Shown here piece after piece: positions 563 to 61,340 of a DNA stretch of 64,000 bases; position 1 is the stretch's first letter, and every line of letters starts with the position of its first letter. The notes under the pieces are model-generated. The model did no database searches, was not told where the DNA came from, and saw only the letters and a list, made by a program, of their open reading frames with translations. Source of the DNA: Bacteroidetes bacterium 2013_40CM_41_45 (lineage in GTDB: Bacteria > Bacteroidota > Bacteroidia > AKYH767-A > 2013-40CM-41-45); assembly GCA_002215675.1 (NCBI GenBank), contig NGFH01000009.1, positions 299,501-363,500 of the forward strand. Direction: 5' to 3'. The translations under genes and the position numbers were made by a program.

Positions 563-2905
563 TTATACTTTTGATAAAATCCTGCCGGCAAAATTGCTCT
601 TTTTCTTTTCATCGTCATAGTAGCCGTAACCATAAGTGTGGCTCTTTCCGGCATCATTAAAAAGTATGCTAATATTTTTCAAAGCATCTTTCCGCTGGTA
701 TTCGTTCAGAACTTTGAGGTTTTCCTTACGTGAATAATTCTGGCGCAGGATAAAAATATTGATATCAGTGTGCTTCATCATTAGCAGCGCATCCGCAACT
801 ATTCCAATAGGAGGAGTGTCAATAATTACATAATCATACCGCTCCTTTAACATTGAAATGAGCATACCGCATTCAGGTTTTGAAATCAACTCTGCAGGAT
901 TGGGAGGCACCGGCCCGGATGAAATGAAATCCAGGCGCTCAATCATAGTGGTATGAATTATTTCTTCAATGCCCGTTTGTCCGCTTAGGTAAGTGCTTAC
1001 TCCTTTTTTATTATCGAAGCCAAAGTCAACATTAAGCTGCGACTTACGAAGGTCGAGCGCCACAATAATAACGCGGTTATTTTGCAAGGCAAGAACTGAA
1101 GCGAGATTAATAGCCGTAAATGATTTTCCTTCACCACCCACAGATGAAGTTATCAGGATGACATTATTTTTTTCATTCATTCCGAAAAATACCAGGTTGG
1201 TCCGGATGGAACGGAATGCTTCGGCTATAGACGATTTTGGTTTATGATGAACCACAAGCCGTCCTCTGCTTTCGCTCATATGCCCGACGATTCCCAGAAC
1301 GGGAATTTTAGTAAGTTTTTCAATTTCCTCACGGGAAGTAATTTTATTCTGTATAAAATCGAGCAATAGTATAGATACCGTTGGCAATGCAAGTCCAAGC
1401 AAGACGCAAATCAGCATTACAATTTTAAGTTTCGGTTGCACAGGAATATCGTTTGCGCTCGCCTCATCCAATACCTTATTGTCTGAAACTACAGTTGCGC
1501 GGGCGATACTTGTTTCAGCTTTCTTTTGCAAAAGGTACAGGTAAATATTCTGGTTCACATCAAAGCCGCGTTGAATGCCAAGCAGCTCACGCTCTACAGA
1601 AGGAATTTTCTTGATGCTTTCTTCGTATTGACCCAGCTCCTTGTTAATGCCTTTAAGATTCACGCTGACGCGGCTTCGGATATTGTTGATGTTTTCTACC
1701 AGCAAGCTTTTGGTTTCAGCTATCTGCGAGTCGATAATTCTTAGTGCGGGCGAGTTTTCTGTTGCTCCGTATGAAAGATTTTTACGTTTGCTCTGCAGTG
1801 TTTGTAGCTGCGTTATCAGTTGAACCAGCACCGGGTCGGGGGTTCCAATACTTGACGGTGAAAGATTCTCCGCATCTTTATTGGAAGAAACATAATCATA
1901 GAGATAATCGAGTGAACGCAAATCAATTTCTGCTTTCACCCGGTCATTATCAACTTCGTTGAGCCGTTCCAGGTAACCTTTTGATTCCTCGCTCAGGTTT
2001 ACAGTTTTATTACGCTCCTTAAACTGCTGTAAGTTGCTTTCAATATTATTGAGCTCCTTGCTGACATCGGAGAGCTGCGCGTCAACAAATTTAAGAGTGA
2101 GAGTGGCTACGGAAGATTTATCTCTTATATCGCGGTTGATATATTCTGACCCTACCGCATCGAGAAATTCTATTGCGCGTTGCTTTATATTGTCCCTGTA
2201 TGTAGCGCGGATAATGGACGCATCCTTATTGAGAGCCGCGACTCGAAGATTGTTTTTGATTCCGGTCATCAACTCTTCGGGAGAATGAATAATAAATTCA
2301 TACGCATTATATTCTTTTAATACGCCGGAGGAATCATTTTTTAAAATCTTTAAGATAAAATAAGGAGTAGAAATTTTTTCGTCAAAATGATGCCTGCCAT
2401 TATATTCATGATTGTTAGCTTCAGTTTCAATTTGCAAATCAAATGTCCCGTCACTCTGCATGTTCAGCTTGAAAGGGCTATCATAAAAATCACTATGAAT
2501 CCATTCGTATTCAACAGTGAAGGGTAAAGGTTTGAATAATGGTTTGCGGCTAAACGTATTTATACCGTAGTAGCTTACGTCCATTTTTATTTTTGAAGCG
2601 GCTTCAAAGAGAACCGAGCGTGACTGTAAAATTCCTATTTCAGAAGAGAGGTTCCTTGCAGGGCTGAAAAGATCAGCGTTAAGAAAATCTTCTATGTTGC
2701 CCGGTGTACCGTATTTGTTGTCCTTTATCAGTATGCTCGTTTCCGCTTCATAAATGGGATCCGAAAATTTCATGTAACCAAAACCGACAGCAATTAAGAT
2801 GACAAATGAGATAACATAATATTTCCAACGGCTGAAAAGTTTTAAAAACAAATGCCGGAGATTTATTTCTTCTCCATCCATATTTCGCTCTAATGCGTCC
2901 GACAT
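563..2905 (-). CDS. Wzc-like polysaccharide co-polymerase / BY-kinase (capsular exopolysaccharide family)
   Basis: This 780-residue protein combines a Wzz-type chain-length domain with a bacterial tyrosine kinase. A transmembrane helix near residues 30-48 and a second near 491-513 bracket a long periplasmic region with coiled-coil-like heptads. The cytoplasmic kinase has a Walker A motif (GGEGKS, about 590), a Walker A' (ALDLRKS, about 617) and a Walker B (IIDTPP, about 697). A tyrosine cluster (YGYGYY, about 758-765) is the usual autophosphorylation site. Members control export and chain length of capsule or exopolysaccharide with a Wza partner, which is encoded 14 bases upstream. The fused one-piece architecture is the usual Bacteroidota and proteobacterial form. 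A cognate phosphatase candidate lies about 7 kb away (9899-10360), but any link is only inferred. Confidence 0.93.
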   Translation of the reverse strand: MSDALERNMDGEEINLRHLFLKLFSRWKYYVISFVILIAVGFGYMKFSDPIYEAETSILIKDNKYGTPGNIEDFLNADLFSPARNLSSEIGILQSRSVLFEAASKIKMDVSYYGINTFSRKPLFKPLPFTVEYEWIHSDFYDSPFKLNMQSDGTFDLQIETEANNHEYNGRHHFDEKISTPYFILKILKNDSSGVLKEYNAYEFIIHSPEELMTGIKNNLRVAALNKDASIIRATYRDNIKQRAIEFLDAVGSEYINRDIRDKSSVATLTLKFVDAQLSDVSKELNNIESNLQQFKERNKTVNLSEESKGYLERLNEVDNDRVKAEIDLRSLDYLYDYVSSNKDAENLSPSSIGTPDPVLVQLITQLQTLQSKRKNLSYGATENSPALRIIDSQIAETKSLLVENINNIRSRVSVNLKGINKELGQYEESIKKIPSVERELLGIQRGFDVNQNIYLYLLQKKAETSIARATVVSDNKVLDEASANDIPVQPKLKIVMLICVLLGLALPTVSILLLDFIQNKITSREEIEKLTKIPVLGIVGHMSESRGRLVVHHKPKSSIAEAFRSIRTNLVFFGMNEKNNVILITSSVGGEGKSFTAINLASVLALQNNRVIIVALDLRKSQLNVDFGFDNKKGVSTYLSGQTGIEEIIHTTMIERLDFISSGPVPPNPAELISKPECGMLISMLKERYDYVIIDTPPIGIVADALLMMKHTDINIFILRQNYSRKENLKVLNEYQRKDALKNISILFNDAGKSHTYGYGYYDDEKKKSNFAGRILSKV

Positions 2906-2919
2906 GATTTTCTAAAAAA

Positions 2920-3678
2920 TTATTTTTTAGTAAGAATAAGTGTTAGTACAACAACCGCTGTTGTCAGCAATGAGGTAAGCAACGTAACGGCAGGGCTGAT
3001 ATTTTGCAGCGCTCTTCTTTTCAGCGGCTCCACATAAATAATATCGTTGGGGTATAGATAATAATTTTCGAGTGTCAGAGATTCCGCATGGGTCATATCA
3101 ATAGCAAGCACCTGGGGTGTTTTGGCATTACTGCGGATAATTTTGAGAGTGGTCCGGTTCCCGAAGGGTGAAATATCTCCGGCCAATCCGAGCGCTTCGG
3201 GAAGTGTAACGGTTTCGCTGTAGATATTAAATGTTCCCGGGCGGGCTACCTCGCCCAGCACCGTGATTTTGAAATTCAGCATCTTCACCGTCACCATCGG
3301 TTCATCCATAAACTTGAGCAGCTTTTTCTTAATGGCATCCGATGCTTCTGTCATGGTCATATTAACCACGCTTACTTCCCCGATAAGCGGCATCTCAAGG
3401 GTTCCCCGGTCGCTTACTGTATAACCTTTCTCATATGGCGAACGCGTATCGGACGATTGTTTATCCGAGACAATATTAAAATAAGGAAATGCTTCGGGGT
3501 TGATGGTAAAAACATTTACCATAAGAATATCGCCGGGAATAATTTTCAGCTTGAAATAATTTGCAGATGTGCTGTCATTAACTGCATTAAACTTTCCCTG
3601 GAAGTACACCAGTTTTTTCTGCGGCGTACAGGAGAAAAAAAGCATTACAATAAAAAAACAGCGCCCGACAATTTTCAT
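2920..3678 (-). CDS. Wza-like polysaccharide export outer-membrane lipoprotein
   Basis: The 252-residue protein starts with a lipoprotein signal (lipobox FFSC, Cys 17), so it should be anchored by acylation after export. A polysaccharide-export domain (GDILMVNVFTINPEAF region) is followed by one SLBB domain (KITVLGEVARPGTFNI). A hydrophobic C-terminal helix ends in LTLILTKK. It is shorter than E. coli Wza (about 380 residues) because it has a single SLBB repeat, as is common in Bacteroidota. It would form the export channel that works with the Wzc-like kinase 14 bases downstream. It follows the acyl-CoA dehydrogenase by 15 bases, so all three are probably co-transcribed. Confidence 0.92.
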   Translation of the reverse strand: MKIVGRCFFIVMLFFSCTPQKKLVYFQGKFNAVNDSTSANYFKLKIIPGDILMVNVFTINPEAFPYFNIVSDKQSSDTRSPYEKGYTVSDRGTLEMPLIGEVSVVNMTMTEASDAIKKKLLKFMDEPMVTVKMLNFKITVLGEVARPGTFNIYSETVTLPEALGLAGDISPFGNRTTLKIIRSNAKTPQVLAIDMTHAESLTLENYYLYPNDIIYVEPLKRRALQNISPAVTLLTSLLTTAVVVLTLILTKK

Positions 3679-3693
3679 CCCTCAAATATTAAA

Positions 3694-4842
3694 TTACAAT
3701 GCTGCATTAAGCACCTGTCTCGAAATAACAATTTTCTGAACTTCTGAAGTTCCCTCGTAAATCTGGGTGATTTTTGCGTCACGCATCATTCGTTCCACAT
3801 GATATTCTTTTACAAAACCATATCCGCCATGCACCTGGACCGCTTCGACTGAAACTTCCATGGCCACCTGAGAAGCAAATAGTTTTGCAATGGAACCGGC
3901 AAGCGTGTAATCAAGGTGCTGGTCTTTGAGCCATGCGGCTTTGAGACAAAGCAGGCGAGCCGCTTCAATTTCTGTCGCCATATCGGCAAGCTTAAACTGG
4001 ATGGCTTGGTGATTGCTGATTACCGTTCCGAATGCCTTACGTTCTTTTGAATATGCCAACGCAAGTTCATAAGCTCCCGATGCTATTCCAAGCGCTTGTG
4101 AAGCAATTCCGATTCTTCCGCCTGCAAGCGTTTTCATGGCGAACTTAAATCCGAAACCATCTTCGCCAATCCGGTTCGCCTTCGGCACTTTTACATCAGT
4201 GAACATGATGGAATGTGTATCAGAACCGCGTATGCCCAGCTTGTTTTCTTTCGGTCCTAATGAAAATCCTTCCCAATTCTTTTCTACTATGAAAGCATTA
4301 ATTCCCTTATGGCCTTTGCTTACGTCAGTTTGCGCCATCACCAGGTGAACCGCAGCCGTTCCACCATTTGTAATCCAGTTCTTGGTTCCGTTCAGCAAAT
4401 AATAATCCCCATTGTCAATAGCTGTTGTTCGCTGCGATGTAGCATCAGAACCCGCTTCGGGCTCCGACAAACAAAATGCACCAATGATTTCTCCTTTGGC
4501 AAGCGGAACAAGATATTTCTGTTTTTGTTCTTCGGTGCCGTAGGTTTCAAGTCCCCAGCAAACCAAAGAATTATTTACCGACATAATCACCGAGCATGAT
4601 GCATCTACCTTAGAAATTTCTTCCATGGCAAGCACATATGAAATGGTATCGAGCCCGCTGCCGCCATATTTTTCGTTCACCATCATTCCCAAAAAACCAA
4701 GCTCAGCCATGCGCTTTACCTGTTCGGCAGGAAACTTTTGCTTGTCATCGCGTTCAATCACGCCAGGTTTTAATTCATTCTGGGCAAAATCGCGCGCAGA
4801 TTTGCGTATGAGTTCGTGTTCTTCGTTAAGTTGAAAATCCAT
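3694..4842 (-). CDS. Acyl-CoA dehydrogenase, short-chain/butyryl type
   Basis: This 382-residue protein has the length and pattern of soluble FAD-dependent acyl-CoA dehydrogenases, which introduce the C2-C3 double bond in beta-oxidation and pass electrons to ETF. Visible landmarks are the FAD/substrate segment CLSEPEAGSDATS, the WITNGG motif, the arginine segment in KERKAFG, and the catalytic-base motif IYEGTSEVQ with Glu near residue 363. Nothing appears truncated. It is the first gene of an apparent operon with wza and wzc homologues and is divergent from anmK. Exact chain-length preference cannot be read from the sequence. Confidence 0.95.
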   Translation of the reverse strand: MDFQLNEEHELIRKSARDFAQNELKPGVIERDDKQKFPAEQVKRMAELGFLGMMVNEKYGGSGLDTISYVLAMEEISKVDASCSVIMSVNNSLVCWGLETYGTEEQKQKYLVPLAKGEIIGAFCLSEPEAGSDATSQRTTAIDNGDYYLLNGTKNWITNGGTAAVHLVMAQTDVSKGHKGINAFIVEKNWEGFSLGPKENKLGIRGSDTHSIMFTDVKVPKANRIGEDGFGFKFAMKTLAGGRIGIASQALGIASGAYELALAYSKERKAFGTVISNHQAIQFKLADMATEIEAARLLCLKAAWLKDQHLDYTLAGSIAKLFASQVAMEVSVEAVQVHGGYGFVKEYHVERMMRDAKITQIYEGTSEVQKIVISRQVLNAAL

Positions 4843-54782: not shown

Positions 54783-56690
54783 ATGTTATCGCTTAACAAA
54801 ATAAGTTTTGAATTCGGAGGAAGGTATCTATATGAAGATGCAAGCTGGCAAATTAACCCCGGTGATAAGGCGGGATTGATAGGAGCCAATGGAAGCGGTA
54901 AATCCACGCTGCTTCGGATTATCAATGGAGAATATTCAACTGAAAGCGGAAACATCACCAAGCTAAGAAATCTGTCCATCGGTTTTCTTAACCAGGATTT
55001 GCTTTCGTACGACAGCGAAAAAAATATTCTGGATGTCGCCCTGGAAGCATTTGAAAAACAACTGCGGCTTCACGAGGAAATTGAAAAGATTCTTTCACGG
55101 CTGGAGCATGAGCATAATGATGAACTCCTTCACCAGCTTCATGACAAACAGGTTTTGTATGAATCGTTGGATGGATATACTATTCAACATAAAGCCGAAG
55201 AACTTTTAGAGGGATTAGGATTCACCACTGCCGACCTAAGACGGCCGCTTAGTGAATTTTCGGGAGGATGGAGAATGCGTGTGATGCTTGCAAAGATTAT
55301 GCTGCAGCGTCCCGATGTTCTCATGCTCGATGAACCCACCAATCACCTTGATTTACCTTCCATTCAGTGGATTGAAAAATACCTGAGGGAATACACGGGA
55401 ACCATTATTCTTGTCTCGCACGACCGGTATTTTTTGGACCGTGTTGTGAATAAAATCGTAGAAATCGCCAACCGGAAGATTACCGTTTACCCGGGCAATT
55501 TTTCGTTCTATGAAAAAGAAAAAACGCTGCGCGATTCATTACAGCAATCGCGTTTCGAAAACCAACAGGATTATATTAAGTCGCAGGAAAAGCTCATTGA
55601 CCGCTTCCGGTACAAAGCATCCAAGGCGCGGTTTGCACAGTCGAGAATTAAAATGCTGGATAAGCTGGAGCGTGTTGAAGAAGTGGCTTCTTCGGGACCC
55701 GTCATCAATATCAAATTTGACATAGCTCAGCAGCCCGGAAAGGTTATTTCAAAAATTTATATACGTGAAAAAAGCTACGATACACTTCGCATTTTCGGAA
55801 GTACCGAAGCGCAGATTCACCGTGGAGATAAAATTGCATTGATTGGAGCAAACGGAAAAGGTAAGTCAACATTGCTGCGGATGCTTAACGGAACAGAACC
55901 TTTTGAAGGAAGAATTCAGGACGGTTATAACGTAACCAAATCCTTTTATGCGCAGCACCAGCTTGAAGCGCTGAACCTTGACAAAAATCTCATCGAAGAA
56001 TTGCAGGATTTTGCGCCCGAGGAAAAGACATCCAACCTGCGGGCGTTACTGGGCGCTTTTCTTTTTTCAGGTGATGATATCCAGAAAAAAATAAAAGTGC
56101 TTTCAGGAGGAGAAAAAGCACGTATGGCTTTAGCGAAACTTATTCTCAGCAAGGCGAATTTCCTGATCCTGGATGAACCAACGAATCATCTAGACTTTCA
56201 ATCAGTAAACATACTGATACAAGTGCTGCAGGAATTTAAAGGGACTTTTATTCTTGTTTCGCACGATAGGTTTTTCATTTCTAAAATAGCAAATAAGATA
56301 TGGTGGATTGAAGACCATGCGATGAAGGAATACCCAGGAACGTATGAAGAGTATGAATATTCAAAGCAACCACAAATGGTTGAAACAACACAGAAAAAAA
56401 CAATTCCCAAAGTTCAATTAAAGGAATCAAAGCCTGAAAAGAAACCTCATGCCGAAGAGCAGAAGAAAAAAAAGAAACTCACCGTTCAGTTTCAGAAGTT
56501 GGAGGAAAAAATCGCTGCTTTAAAATCTGAAAAAGAAAAATCAGAGACACAATTATCGCTACCCGAAATTTATAGTGACCAAAAGGCATTTCAGCAGGCG
56601 CTGTCGCAGTTCAATACAATTGAAAAAGAACTGAAGAAGACGACTGAAGAATGGGAAAAAATTTTTGAAGAGTTGGAAGGTGCAGACTAA
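54783..56690 (+). CDS. ABC-F family ATPase (Uup/EttA-like)
   Basis: The 635-residue protein has two ABC domains and no membrane segment. Domain 1: Walker A GANGSGKST (about 34-42), signature FSGGWRMRVMLAK, Walker B VLMLDEPTNHLD. Domain 2: Walker A GANGKGKST, signature LSGGEKARMALAK, Walker B FLILDEPTNHLD. The inter-domain linker (about 240-300) and a C-terminal Lys/Glu-rich coiled coil (about 545-635) are typical of translation-factor ABC-F proteins, some of which protect ribosomes from antibiotics. Its stop overlaps the next convergent gene by 4 bases. Confidence 0.95.
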   Translation: MLSLNKISFEFGGRYLYEDASWQINPGDKAGLIGANGSGKSTLLRIINGEYSTESGNITKLRNLSIGFLNQDLLSYDSEKNILDVALEAFEKQLRLHEEIEKILSRLEHEHNDELLHQLHDKQVLYESLDGYTIQHKAEELLEGLGFTTADLRRPLSEFSGGWRMRVMLAKIMLQRPDVLMLDEPTNHLDLPSIQWIEKYLREYTGTIILVSHDRYFLDRVVNKIVEIANRKITVYPGNFSFYEKEKTLRDSLQQSRFENQQDYIKSQEKLIDRFRYKASKARFAQSRIKMLDKLERVEEVASSGPVINIKFDIAQQPGKVISKIYIREKSYDTLRIFGSTEAQIHRGDKIALIGANGKGKSTLLRMLNGTEPFEGRIQDGYNVTKSFYAQHQLEALNLDKNLIEELQDFAPEEKTSNLRALLGAFLFSGDDIQKKIKVLSGGEKARMALAKLILSKANFLILDEPTNHLDFQSVNILIQVLQEFKGTFILVSHDRFFISKIANKIWWIEDHAMKEYPGTYEEYEYSKQPQMVETTQKKTIPKVQLKESKPEKKPHAEEQKKKKKLTVQFQKLEEKIAALKSEKEKSETQLSLPEIYSDQKAFQQALSQFNTIEKELKKTTEEWEKIFEELEGAD

Positions 56691-58273
56691 TACCCGCTCA
56701 CAAGCCGTAACGTCTTGGAAAAATTATCCTTGCTGATTCTGCAAAAGAAAGCAGACGAAGCATAGTCGCTCAGATTTACCGTAACCGTTTTTTTCTGTCC
56801 CGCATTAACATTCGAATTAAAGACAATGGCTATTAATTTTCCGCTGCTGTCAAACAATTCAAGTTTCACATTGCCTTTTGTCCGAACTGAAAATTCAAGA
56901 TTTATTTTTCCGTCAGAAGGATTCGGATATGCAATAAAATCTGAAATATCACTGCTCAGTTTTATTTCAGGCACCGACACCGTCATATCAATATAAACTG
57001 CAAATACTCTTGTGCTAGCTGTACTTGATTCAGGCGCTGTTGAACTGATGTTGCGTGCAGGACTGCTGATGCCGCTTATAATGTAACCCACCTTGGTAAC
57101 TCCACTCAGCGCATTCAGGTTAATGATGCGGCTGTGGTATGTGCTGATTGCCGGCAGCGGAATAAATAAAGCATTGGAACCATAGAAGCCCGGCATAGTG
57201 ATGGGCAAAAGATATTCGGTCATGGTGCCATCGGCAGCACGCGTAACCCTGCTAATCGTTTTTACAAACGGCACCAGCGTATCGAGCGTCTGCGCCTGGG
57301 TAGCGGAATCAATATAATACAAGCTCATACCTCCGAAGAAAATACTGTGCATCGTATTGTTCAGTGAATCATACACCGGCATCACCGCCGACTCGTAATT
57401 ATTAAGATTCTGAGTAAAGTTATTGTTGACAGTGAAAAGCATCGGCTTTATATCAACGCTGTTTACAAACGGTTCGGTGATGCCATAGCGAAACACTCCC
57501 GAGAAAGCAGTGAACCCGAATTGCCCGTCAGGAAAAATCTGCGGCACAAGATTATAATCTCTGCGATGAAAGTTTGCCGTATCAACAGATTGTTGAAAGT
57601 TGGTGATGGAAATATTGATACCGTCATCGTTAATCCGAAACGTGCGCACGGCATTGCTGTAGCGCTGGTCATTCAAATTATCCACCTGGTGATAAGAGCC
57701 GTTGAAGCGATGCCCGAAAACGAGGTAATATGTTGAATCCATTTTTTCAAGATGTGCGCCTGCAATGGCGAGGTTGGTGTCAGTGATTTGCCGGAAATAA
57801 GTATTAACGACTCCGCCGGCCATCACAGCATTCATCAAACCGTTCACATCAATGGCAGTCAGGGTAGGGAAGGTGATAAAATCATTGATGCTGGTTTTCC
57901 AACCGTACCCTCCAGCCATATAGAGTGTATTTCCATCCTGGTAATATTCCATATTGGTTGAAGTGATGGGTTCGCGGATACTGTCGGGTAAAGTTATTGT
58001 TGAAGCGGCCCAGTTTGTGTTTGCAACAGGGTCGACAACTGTAATCGTATCGTTGGCGTACATGGTTTCAAAAGCAAAAGGGGTGAGGAAACCATGCAGC
58101 CCGTTTTTTCGTCCGCCTATAAAAAGCCATTTGTCGTTGCTCTGTGCAAATGCAAACGAGTGAATGCCCGGCATAGCTGTAATGGGCTCATCAGCAATAG
58201 TTACTGCAAATGGCTGCTGTGCGCTGGCAAGAAGTGAAAAAGAAAGACAGAGTATTACGAGGAGAAATTTCAC
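56687..58273 (-). CDS. T9SS-secreted protein, unknown large domain
   Basis: The 528-residue protein has a signal peptide (MKFLLVILCLSFSLLASAQQ) and a large N-terminal domain with kelch- or propeller-like segments (YMAGGYGWKTSINDFITFP; IFFGGMSLYYIDS). A type A sorting domain follows (IAYPNPSDGKINLEF ... FSKTLRLVSGY). The end lacks the basic residues seen in the other cargo proteins. No enzyme motif was seen. It is convergent with the ABC-F gene (4-base overlap). Confidence 0.83.
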   Translation of the reverse strand: MKFLLVILCLSFSLLASAQQPFAVTIADEPITAMPGIHSFAFAQSNDKWLFIGGRKNGLHGFLTPFAFETMYANDTITVVDPVANTNWAASTITLPDSIREPITSTNMEYYQDGNTLYMAGGYGWKTSINDFITFPTLTAIDVNGLMNAVMAGGVVNTYFRQITDTNLAIAGAHLEKMDSTYYLVFGHRFNGSYHQVDNLNDQRYSNAVRTFRINDDGINISITNFQQSVDTANFHRRDYNLVPQIFPDGQFGFTAFSGVFRYGITEPFVNSVDIKPMLFTVNNNFTQNLNNYESAVMPVYDSLNNTMHSIFFGGMSLYYIDSATQAQTLDTLVPFVKTISRVTRAADGTMTEYLLPITMPGFYGSNALFIPLPAISTYHSRIINLNALSGVTKVGYIISGISSPARNISSTAPESSTASTRVFAVYIDMTVSVPEIKLSSDISDFIAYPNPSDGKINLEFSVRTKGNVKLELFDSSGKLIAIVFNSNVNAGQKKTVTVNLSDYASSAFFCRISKDNFSKTLRLVSGY

Positions 58274-58359
58274 TTTAATAAATGGAAATAATTATATGTT
58301 GTAAGTTATTGTCTGTGGTGTCAGGTCCTTCGACTTTGCACTTTCATTTGCTCGTTTTC

Positions 58360-58385
58360 ACTGTCAGGACGGAAGTCCTGACAGT
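58360..58385. repeat. Perfect 11-bp hairpin with GGAA loop
   Basis: Arms ACTGTCAGGAC and GTCCTGACAGT. The same CAGGA/TCCTG words occur in the hairpin at 54675-54697, suggesting a dispersed palindromic element. Confidence 0.65.
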
Positions 58386-58532
58386 ACAGCAAAGAAAGAC
58401 GGATTATTATGAGAAGAAATATTTCACCGCTGATATGCGTTGCAATATTTTTGGTTTGCAGAATGTTTGTTACTTGCATACAGTATCGTGACTTCCACAA
58501 CTCTTCTTTTTTAAATTGCATTTAATCTTAGT

Positions 58533-58542
58533 GTTATGCGCA
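58533..58542. repeat. Left copy of 10-base inverted repeat bracketing one gene
   Basis: GTTATGCGCA; perfect inverted partner at 59329-59338. Confidence 0.6.
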
Positions 58543-58603
58543 TCACCACTCTCCGCGCCACGAAGCGATACAGTTGCAAGTTCGCACGCACTTTGTTTAA
58601 ACT

Positions 58604-59212
58604 TTACATTGAGAAGTTAAGGTTTGTTGGTTCTGCATTTTGAATAGAAGGCGCTTTGTATTCATACTCTCCAACTTCCAACTTGTCTAATACTTTGTCT
58701 GAACTGCTTGCAACTTCTATTTTCAAATTGTCAAACCACATTTGTCCTGTTCCATTTAGCAGTCCACCAAATGCAATGTTCTTTGTATCCGAAGGAACAT
58801 CTAAAACGATTTCACATTTTGTCCAATCGCTATTTCCTCTCATATATCTGTTCTTCATATTCTCAAGAGAATATTTTGTTGGTTGGTCAATGCGTATCCA
58901 AAGTGCAGACCAACTTGTAACATCTTTCGTTTTAATATACCCTGAAAGTTTAATTTTCTTTCCAAGATACTTACTCGGATTAAAACTTTGCCCAAGAGAA
59001 GCAAAACCATCCATGCCTCCAATGTCTTCGGCAATTGATTTAATTGTTGCAGCATTGATTCCATTTTGTCCTGCGCCTTTGTCAATGCCTGCATCGTATT
59101 TTTCAGGAGCGTCACCTTTTTTCACCCAACCGTTGGGAACAGTGAATGATACAAGTGTTACTGTCATCGCAATGAGTAACACACTTACTAAAACTTTCAT
59201 AGTTGCTTTCAT
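58604..59212 (-). CDS. Secreted beta-sandwich (galactose-binding-like) protein in a cassette-like block
   Basis: The 202-residue product has a signal peptide or anchor (MKVLVSVLLIAMTVTLVSFTV from the second Met). A single beta-sandwich follows (KYLGKKIKLSGYIKTKDVTSW ... CEIVLDVPSDTKNIAFGG ... GTGQMWFDNLKIEV), similar in pattern to carbohydrate-binding or DUF-type galactose-binding domains sometimes appended to regulators. No catalytic motif was seen. The gene is bracketed by inverted repeats at 58533 and 59329. Its codon use looks more AT-rich than that of its neighbours, which could mean transfer, though this is only a by-eye impression. Confidence 0.7.
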   Translation of the reverse strand: MKATMKVLVSVLLIAMTVTLVSFTVPNGWVKKGDAPEKYDAGIDKGAGQNGINAATIKSIAEDIGGMDGFASLGQSFNPSKYLGKKIKLSGYIKTKDVTSWSALWIRIDQPTKYSLENMKNRYMRGNSDWTKCEIVLDVPSDTKNIAFGGLLNGTGQMWFDNLKIEVASSSDKVLDKLEVGEYEYKAPSIQNAEPTNLNFSM

Positions 59213-59328
59213 TGTAATTTATTTTTTGATTGTTGCTTACTCTATTCGGTTTTCAGCATCTCCGTTTATTTAGTTTTTCAAAGTTAATTTCTTGGACACA
59301 CTTTCAAGTTGGTAGCCCCCCAAACGGT

Positions 59329-59338
59329 TGCGCATAAC
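59329..59338. repeat. Right copy of 10-base inverted repeat
   Basis: TGCGCATAAC, the exact reverse complement of the copy at 58533-58542. Confidence 0.6.
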
Positions 59339-59371
59339 ATTTAAATATACGCAGTGAACCTACCAATACTC

Positions 59372-59392
59372 GCATATAACATATAACTTATA
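59372..59392. repeat. Short 7-base tandem array (3 units)
   Basis: GCATATA, ACATATA, ACTTATA, next to the cassette-like block's right edge. Confidence 0.55.
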
Positions 59393-59420: not shown

Positions 59421-61340
59421 TTATTTCTGGACAATCACTTTAAACACTGAATGCGCCCGTTCCGTTTTCATAAATAAGAAATAAACTCCTTCAGAAGCGC
59501 CGGACAGATTTACAAGAATATTTTTCTTTCCTCTTTCCGCTTCAATATTTTTTTCATAAATAGTTCTACCTAATGCATCGGTTACAAGCATTGTAAATTT
59601 TGTATATCGGAAAAGAGCAAACTCAACATTAAACTCTGCATGATTGGGATTTGGATAAACAGAAACGTTGCCGAACTCATTTTCCCCGATGCCTGTACAT
59701 ACATCAACCGTTACATACTGCGTATCGGTAAGGATGCAGCCCGATGCATTATAATAACAATTTGAAATGGTATCAGCGAGAGTGTAAACGACTGCATGGA
59801 CACCTAAACCTGCTGCATTCGGGTCAAACATATTGCCGCTCATGCCCGGCCCGCTGAATATTCCGCCCGCAGGGATACCGGTTAATGCAACCGCCGGCGC
59901 TGTGTCACAATAAAGTGAATCGAGTCCGAGGATAGACGCATTGGTAAAAATATGAACGGTATTTGATGAAGCTGTACAATTGCCATTTGAAACTTGAACA
60001 TATATTGAGTCGCCATTGCTAAAGCTCGATAAGCCGTAAGACTGACCAGTCGATACAAGAGCAACATTATGATACCATTGATATGTAAGCCCCGTTCCGT
60101 AAATAGCATTAAACGTCATGGCGCTGCCGGTACAGTTAATAAGGGTGTCACGGGAATTTATGTAAGCTGTGGGAGCGCAACCCGTATCGTGTACACGGTA
60201 AATACGCCCGGATGCAACGCCTGCCAGGTAAAGTTCTCCGTAAATATCTTCTCCCCACGAGCTATAGTTACTGTTAATCTGCGTAGTTGCTTGTGAAAGT
60301 TGTGAAGTGGTCCATCCACCGCTGCCATTAGGAACGGTTGCCCATATTCTTCCCTGGCAATAGTCGGTGAACAAATACTTTCCAAAAAGCCCTCCTTCCT
60401 GTCCACCGCGATATACATACCCGCCGGTTATTGAACAACCAAGGGAATGCGGGTAAGCTGTTACAGGAAACACATAAGATGACGCCGGCAAACATCCCGT
60501 TGTATTGTAGGTGGAATCTCCCTCATAACATCTCCACCCGTAATCTTCTCCTCCCAAACTGCACCGTGATTGAAAATCGATTTCTTCATACGCATTCTGA
60601 CCTACATCTCCAATCCAGAAATCTCCTGTCATCCGGTCGAAACTGCAGCGCCACGGATTGCGCACACCATATGCCCATATTTCGTCACGGCCGGCAGTAG
60701 GTCCATAAAAAGGATTGGTGGGAGGACTGGAATAATAGGGAGGATTAGGATTGTTCACATCAATTCTGAGAATCTTGGCGAGCAGCGAATCAATGTCTTG
60801 CCCGTTGTTCTGAGGGTCACCGCCGCTGCCACCGTCTCCCATGCTAATGTACAGATACCCGTCAGGGCCAAACACCAGGTTGCCGCCATTATGATTTGTA
60901 AAGGGCTGGTAAATGGTCAGGAGAATCTGTTCACTGTTTGTTAAAGCTGTATCAGCAAAAGAACTTACCTGGTAGCGGGCAATTACCGTGTTGTTGCTTG
61001 TATTTGTATAATCAACATAAAAATAACCGTTGTTTGCATAGTCAGGATGAAAGGCAAGGCCGAGCAGCCCCCGCTCATCATTTACGGTTGTTACATTAGA
61101 AACCCTGCTGTATATATCAAGAAACGGAGTAGCATTCACGGCTCCGGTCAACCGGTTAACAATTTTTATTCTTCCTCTTTTTTCATTAATAAATAACCTG
61201 TTATCGCCGGGAACTTTAGTGTTTTGAATGCATGTAGGCATTAGCAATCCTGCGCACAACGTATCAATCCTGATGACCTGCGAAAAAGTTGTCTTAGATG
61301 CGATGAGTGAAACCAACAGAAGCGGAATAAGTTTTTTCAT
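59421..61340 (-). CDS. T9SS-secreted PQQ-dependent sugar dehydrogenase-like protein
   Basis: The 639-residue protein has a signal peptide (MKKLIPLLLVSLIASKTTFS). A soluble glucose/sorbosone dehydrogenase propeller follows (RGLLGLAFHPDYANNGYFYV, GPDGYLYISMGDGGSGGDP, GVRNPWRCSFDRMTGDFWIGDVGQ). An extension with Ig-like segments and a type A sorting domain (SVYPNPNHAEFNVE ... SVFKVIVQK) complete it. The family oxidises aldose sugars with PQQ in the periplasm or outside the cell. Catalytic His and Arg residues could not be checked without alignment. Confidence 0.9.
   Translation of the reverse strand: MKKLIPLLLVSLIASKTTFSQVIRIDTLCAGLLMPTCIQNTKVPGDNRLFINEKRGRIKIVNRLTGAVNATPFLDIYSRVSNVTTVNDERGLLGLAFHPDYANNGYFYVDYTNTSNNTVIARYQVSSFADTALTNSEQILLTIYQPFTNHNGGNLVFGPDGYLYISMGDGGSGGDPQNNGQDIDSLLAKILRIDVNNPNPPYYSSPPTNPFYGPTAGRDEIWAYGVRNPWRCSFDRMTGDFWIGDVGQNAYEEIDFQSRCSLGGEDYGWRCYEGDSTYNTTGCLPASSYVFPVTAYPHSLGCSITGGYVYRGGQEGGLFGKYLFTDYCQGRIWATVPNGSGGWTTSQLSQATTQINSNYSSWGEDIYGELYLAGVASGRIYRVHDTGCAPTAYINSRDTLINCTGSAMTFNAIYGTGLTYQWYHNVALVSTGQSYGLSSFSNGDSIYVQVSNGNCTASSNTVHIFTNASILGLDSLYCDTAPAVALTGIPAGGIFSGPGMSGNMFDPNAAGLGVHAVVYTLADTISNCYYNASGCILTDTQYVTVDVCTGIGENEFGNVSVYPNPNHAEFNVEFALFRYTKFTMLVTDALGRTIYEKNIEAERGKKNILVNLSGASEGVYFLFMKTERAHSVFKVIVQK

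Follow-up and report, generated by a model that had tools for sequence, protein, structure and literature searches.

What is the short block of DNA that an exact inverted repeat sets off in this Bacteroidota contig, and how did it come to lie between two chromosomal genes? In the window (the whole stretch of 64,000 nucleotides analysed here), the 10-mer GTTATGCGCA at 58533-58542 (+) returns as its inverse TGCGCATAAC at 59329-59338. An earlier note, made from the sequence alone, had described a perfect 10-base inverted repeat bounding 806 bases with only one gene; sequence and coordinates proved exact, and the block (58533..59338) holds a single plausible gene, of 202 aa on the minus strand. 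Among the origins that the note had offered, a cassette relic is the one best supported, by comparative evidence. We conclude that the block is very probably an integron-type gene cassette, consisting of one gene with its own leader and the R''/L'' half of its attC site, that was inserted at an attI-like site. It would no longer be mobile, having lost the L'/R' half of attC in a genome that holds no intact cognate integrase. The features are collected in the table.

Table. Features of the cassette and its surroundings (positions in the window).
Feature	Position	Strand	Basis
Gene-cassette body, 806 nt, with R' at its start (59338) and R'' at its end (58533)	58533..59338	-	R'/R'' complementary over 10 nt; locus empty in four relatives
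R' core GTTATGCGCA, cassette start	59329..59338	-	Repeat match; comparison of start with own R''
R'' core TGCGCATAAC of the cassette's own attC	58533..58542	-	Repeat match
Surviving attC half, R'' + spacer + L'' arm (TGCGCATAAC ACTAAGATTAAATGCAATTTAAAAAAGAAG)	58503..58542	-	28/33 identical to arm of complete sites
Cassette gene, 202 aa, putative signal peptide and predicted jelly-roll (carbohydrate-binding-module-like) domain	58604..59212	-	ORF, structure model, structure search
DUF805b RNA motif (RF02914), 5' UTR, 34.9 bits (gathering 35.6)	59234..59266	-	Rfam
Cassette 5' leader beyond R' (...AACTTGAAA...CAAGAAAT), common to other cassettes	59277..59328	-	z 9.0 to C11 cassette, 7.8 to nzgw146
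Putative attI-like site abutting cassette start (GCGAGTATTGGTAGGTTCACTGCGTATATTTAAAT), 35 nt	59339..59373	-	Similarity to other attI sites
Left neighbour, glucose/sorbosone dehydrogenase-type protein with T9SS tail; chromosomal, outside cassette	59421..61340	-	
Right neighbour, 528-aa protein with T9SS tail; chromosomal, next to the left neighbour's homologue in relatives	56687..58273	-	

The inverted repeat alone is not above chance. Perfect 10-mer pairs of the form GTTR.../...YAAC no more than 3 kb apart number 3 in the window, and first-order Markov simulations of it yielded 3.8 on average (range 0-8); about four such pairs are thus expected in a window of this make-up, and the case therefore rests on comparative evidence. 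The 10-mer GTTATGCGCA has 7 exact copies in the 3.38-Mb genome, and the present pair is the sole one to bracket a short block. With 7 copies and no second bracketing pair, the exact 10-mer was rejected as a genome-wide signature; it is unpaired elsewhere because the R'/R'' pair differs between cassettes.

This variation is itself informative. We assembled by hand 12 cassettes with both ends known, from the window's own genome and seven others, and scored seven bases beyond GTT in each. The cassette start agrees with the cassette's own R'' at 79 of the 84 variable positions (10/10 in the window), while permuted pairings of starts and R'' gave a mean of 45 and a maximum of 72, and none of 100,000 reached 79. 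R' and R'' are complementary over 10 nt in the window cassette and most of the 11 others; in the own-genome cassette at C1:447 kb only 5 of 10 end bases agree. The end sequences differ among cassettes (GTTATGCGCA, GTTAGCCGCA, GTTATCAGCA, GTTGTAGCAC, GTTGGCGGTA and others). Because the bases vary between cassettes, the agreement is a co-variation and not a fixed end sequence. The repeat is inverted because integration would split the attC stem arms R'' and R' to the end and the start of the cassette. The bounds had been likened to integron core sites, and cores of the R'/R'' type they are; however, they belong to the start and the own R'' of the same cassette, which accounts for their inversion, and not to two neighbouring attC sites.

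In gene direction the left bound opens the block (GTTATGCGCAACC...) and the right bound closes it (...GATGCGCATAAC), to be followed by ACTAAGATTAAATGCAATTTAAAAAAGAAG. The latter, taken with the R'' end, is identical at 28 of 33 positions to an arm found elsewhere in the same genome, AACATTAAGATTAAAAGAAATAAAAAAAAGAAG (score 23, against at most 19 in 2000 shuffles). The latter arm makes up one half of a complete hairpin with attC architecture at two places, C1:618.8 kb and C1:428.9 kb, in the order R'' (GCGGATAAC), unpaired spacer, long L'' arm, variable loop, complementary L' arm, spacer and R' (GTTATGCG); a third complete hairpin, a short one, lies at C6:293.8 kb. Full-length attC hairpins of the window type measure 135-185 nt. 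The resemblance of TTAGTGTTATGCG to the end of an attC site, also remarked in the earlier note, is real, this being the reverse of R''-spacer. Inner attC sites are indeed absent inside the block, as had been observed, but an attC arm lies just outside the right-hand 10-mer and complete sites occur elsewhere in the genome. Among 84,980 genomes searched, the L'-R' arm pattern matched 33 contigs, with the whole site in about 20, nearly all from Bacteroidota; among them are MAGs labelled Chryseobacterium or Chitinophaga and an isolate, Thermoflexibacter ruber.

Bottom-strand DNA folding of five complete attC sites gave z values of -4.3, -7.0, -2.9, -11.7 and -4.7, whereas the window attC stretch does not fold (z +0.8). 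The L'/R' half was not found within 700 nt downstream of the cassette. A complete hairpin (R''-L''-VTS-L'-R') thus ends related cassettes but not this one, and as only R''-spacer-L'' is left, we regard the window cassette as a relic and not as active. An Rfam scan of the window returned no attC-like family; a Yersinia sRNA match at 58349-58548 fell far under its cut-off and was taken as chance.

The locus is empty in relatives. Homologues of the two flanking genes (45-52% identical) are adjacent, at most about 50 nt apart and without a cassette, in G004, G005 and G009, which belong to the same family as the window genome, and in G044; in the window they lie 1,147 nt apart with the cassette between them. 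No target-site duplication is visible at the block bounds. The boundary and the empty locus together would place the crossover between G 59338 and T 59337. The earlier note had held that the cassette idea would suffer if the 10-mer paired nowhere else and a relative kept the gene in place without the repeats. The 10-mer does pair nowhere else; the relatives, however, lack both the block and the gene at this locus, which argues for presence or absence of a cassette and not for a gene that lost its repeats.

A junction of the same kind can be seen changing partners. The contigs concerned, from G035, G026 and G016 (UBA6661, SZAS-1 and WAS_Bin_1 in public records), are 100% identical over a stretch of 7-8 kb that takes in one cassette with its attC. 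Beyond it they share no similarity; the switch falls exactly at CTTCG|TTA, where each contig enters an unrelated cassette. Recombination at attC leaves just such a junction. Shared plasmids or mis-binning could account for the 7-8 kb of identity, but not for the position of the break. The G|TT junction is thus observed directly in these three genomes.

The cassette gene, which has the same orientation as the array, matches no Pfam family. A structure model (alignment of 15 relatives; pLDDT 85.8, pTM 0.80) comprises an N-terminal hydrophobic helix, by inspection a signal peptide, and a beta-sandwich. The model finds its best PDB matches among carbohydrate-binding modules, namely 4d0q, which binds hyaluronan (target TM 0.65), CBM22 and CBM16. 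The model suggests that the product is likely a secreted sugar-binding protein. Relatives of the gene occur in 26 of 199 genomes. In G171, G095 and G114, homologues 51-52% identical lie within cassettes whose flanking att sites differ in sequence type; elsewhere, and so in most relatives, the homologues are ordinary, non-cassette genes.

Upstream of the gene, the leader beyond R' resembles that of two other cassettes strongly (table) and that of four more weakly (z 1.9-3.1). Beyond R', unrelated cassette genes share a conserved leader some 50 nt long (GCAAY..TTGGGCGACA.TGCTAACTTGAAACT..TGCAAGAAATGA), at cassette starts in L038, L041, L040, L117, L095 and L108 and in the window at 59277-59338; it is possibly a promoter or 5' UTR. 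We know of no canonical cassettes with such a leader. The 35 nt before the cassette start bear a moderate similarity to three sites, namely the attI that follows the integrase of G044 (z 5.9), the C11 site of the window's own genome (z 4.1) and that of Umea1 L095 (z 4.1), and show no resemblance to several other attI sites compared. We read them as a diverged attI-like site, although capture of the window cassette at a secondary site is possible.

Which enzyme moved these cassettes? The absence of an integrase from the window, already noted, extends to the whole genome: an IntI search found nothing over the TIGR02249 cut-off, with XerC/D-type matches and one remnant only, and no member of the Bacteroidota IntI-like recombinase family was present at E <= 1e-75. 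The remnant, at C6:390 kb, comprises 57 residues from the C-terminus of an integrase and shares 82% identity with that of G044; after it come an attI site ending GAGGATAATAGATG|TTATAGGC and then a cassette, and a near-identical attI stands in front of the C1:617.6-kb array. In 149 relatives, too, no match exceeded the TIGR02249 cut-off, and an IntI-like recombinase was present in 78 of them. By reading the sequence past each stop codon we found attI behind the relatives' integrases, mostly as a G|TT junction with a cassette-like start some 30-180 nt past the stop; two contigs terminate on that junction. A contig start lies within 700 nt on the 3' side of the recombinase gene in 11/34, versus 1/44 on the 5' side (Fisher p 0.0003), which fits with variable, repeated arrays following the recombinase. 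Thus attI adjoins an integrase gene in relatives and at the C6 remnant, and the window has an attI-like site with no integrase. A first scan found no window-type attC motifs beside the relatives' integrases, since those integrases use other attC sequences.

Complete modules of integrase, attI, cassette and attC were found in Chitinophagaceae nzgw146 (L117), Umea1 bin-0169 (L095), G093, G134 and plasmid NZ_CP041688.1. L117 and L095 are the 2 of the 33 attC contigs in which a tyrosine recombinase lies directly upstream of same-orientation cassettes. G093 and G134 each hold a whole first cassette with matching R'/R'', and the plasmid, a complete one from Chryseobacterium sp. SNU WT5, carries the recombinase, attI and an array that includes gene-less units. 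Such a unit at L209 13154-13365, with three further copies in one array, consists of R' GTTGGGAAAAATCG, about nine bases, R'' CGATTTTTCCCAAC and a complete attC. The first cassette of the nzgw146 array (L117 4405-6924) encodes an 839-aa protein that by eye resembles an ATPase/DUF3883-type defence gene. On a third contig, L093, an IS91-type element and a XerC/IntI-like recombinase (2468-4807) lie directly beside a window-type attC; the recombinase of this element belongs elsewhere. IS91-type transposase genes adjoin XerC/IntI-like recombinase genes in L093, L144, L212 and L213.

Is this recombinase IntI? The IntI-specific additional domain is held to be essential for attC recombination. It has been named a defining character of integron integrases (PMC9668308). 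The Bacteroidota recombinases reach 178-224 bits with TIGR02249, whose cut-off is 265, and 208-224 bits with the XerA-like NF040815 (cut-off 220). They align to IntI4 (2A3V) in two blocks with the middle segment missing, so that IntI4 residues 181-248 are almost without counterpart, and the first catalytic arginine lies 88-94 residues (mostly 89-90) from HxLRH, versus 131 in IntI1. Judged from these alignments, they are tyrosine recombinases without the IntI-specific domain. In a tree, from which we read no placement of IntI1, L124 (G044), L117, L143 (G035), L138 (G005) and L095 form a group that holds both integrases found with window-type attC (L117, L095) and the closest relative of the remnant (L124). 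An E. coli integrase intended as second IntI reference (L211) is a shortened IntI1 copy and was left out as evidence.

We propose the following model. The attC of an excised cassette circle would fold as a single-stranded hairpin; folding would be required for recombination, and the complete attC sites have the bottom-strand potential for it. The Bacteroidota tyrosine recombinase may recognise the folded attC and join it to attI with crossover at G|TT, catalysing cassette recombination despite its lack of the IntI-specific domain. Crossover would split attC, R' passing to the cassette start and R'' staying at the cassette end, so that the two stem arms are seen as an inverted repeat around the gene. 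The window cassette probably entered by this route.

Other explanations of the block deserve consideration. Coincidence, with an ordinary chromosomal gene happening to lie between two inverted copies of a 10-mer, agrees with the four or so comparable pairs that simulation predicts per window and with the ordinary, non-cassette nature of most homologues in relatives. We nevertheless find it very improbable, given that the right-hand 10-mer runs on into a 33-nt arm whose attC type occurs throughout the phylum, the left-hand one is followed by a leader common to other cassettes and lies against an attI-like site, and the locus is empty in relatives. No more credible is a transposon, or a MITE-like unit, bounded by short terminal inverted repeats: inverted ends, one gene and insertion between two adjacent genes would suit it, but a fixed-end transposase would not give ends that vary from unit to unit yet match within each unit, consecutive array units share one hairpin, and there is neither a visible target-site duplication nor a transposase.

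A greater, though still small, probability attaches to an ordinary cassette moved by a transiently acquired canonical IntI, the neighbouring Bacteroidota recombinase being incidental. The attC architecture and the G|TT crossover are as in canonical integrons; there are reports of integrons from Bacteroidota (PMC8618304, PMC9668308), and attC sites of widely differing origin are substrates of canonical IntI (PMC9668308). Weighing against it, none of the 149 relatives has a match over the TIGR02249 cut-off while 78 have the IntI-like recombinase, this recombinase lies directly upstream of attI and a first cassette in at least five independent loci, and the group of L124, L117, L143, L138 and L095 unites the integrases of window-type attC with the closest relative of the remnant. 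Our preferred reading remains an integron-type cassette of a Bacteroidota system, which is spread through the phylum and seems to use an integrase without the part thought to define integron integrases. We cautiously favour the broader view that Bacteroidota have their own common integron class, whose integrase lacks the IntI-specific domain and recognises attC otherwise, which IntI-requiring tools miss, and of which the window block is a stranded cassette.

About half of the 149 surveyed relatives carry the IntI-like recombinase, and a GTT junction with a cassette-like start lies behind most of the loci read. Should the recombinase act on attC despite lacking the IntI-specific domain, the essential role of that domain would be open to direct test, and in Bacteroidota, a phylum important in guts, soils and water, a large route of gene exchange would have gone unnoticed. 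Integrons are regarded as rare in this phylum. They are listed for it (PMC8618304, PMC9668308), with complete ones described as very rare: IntegronFinder 2.0 reported first only In0 elements and then one complete integron, in Salinibacter (PMC9024848). In the openly searchable literature, as distinct from subscription papers and preprints, we found no description of this Bacteroidota integron variant.

Likenesses to known systems are extensive. With integron cassettes and with CALIN/SALIN, that is, attC-bearing cassettes with no or a distant integrase, the Bacteroidota cassettes share the single-gene unit, the R' start and own R'', an attC-type hairpin, the G|TT crossover, one orientation per array and the occurrence of lone cassettes away from an integrase. 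Unlike integron cassettes, several have a conserved 5' leader beyond R', their attC arms are A/T-rich with long L stems, the associated integrase is without the IntI-specific domain, and the window cassette has lost half its attC. Chromosomal integrons (VchIntIA/IntI4, PDB 2A3V; IntI1) likewise have a tyrosine recombinase, attI and then a cassette array, whereas many of the Bacteroidota integrases carry an extra N-terminal domain. The Chryseobacterium plasmid copy bears in RefSeq the name of the XerA-like NF040815, 'site-specific tyrosine recombinase/integron integrase', but that family name is silent on the attI/attC modules found here beside the gene. Among 'integron-like' simple tyrosine recombinases the insertion is described as not fully conserved by Smyshlyaev et al. 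2021 (PMC8138268), in passages that tie no cassettes or att sites to the insertion-less members.

The window cassette also carries a DUF805b motif, which recurs at other cassettes of its genome. It was not found in nine further attC loci, and we therefore rejected it as a general element of the cassette system. About 14 well-scoring DUF805/DUF805b motifs occur in the own genome, at C1:40-95 kb, C2:270 kb, C10:48-57 kb and C11:11-17 kb (L008-L023). DUF805 motifs at C11:14-17 kb and C1:428/619 kb lie inside cassettes and many others outside. The DUF805/DUF805b sequences resemble a small H-type pseudoknot, with GCC/GGC or GCT/AGC as second stem, and clustered ACTAGGGTTTTCCCTAG repeats adjoin the DUF805 motifs in L009, L015, L022 and L023 (C11, C1:76 kb, C1:94 kb and C8).
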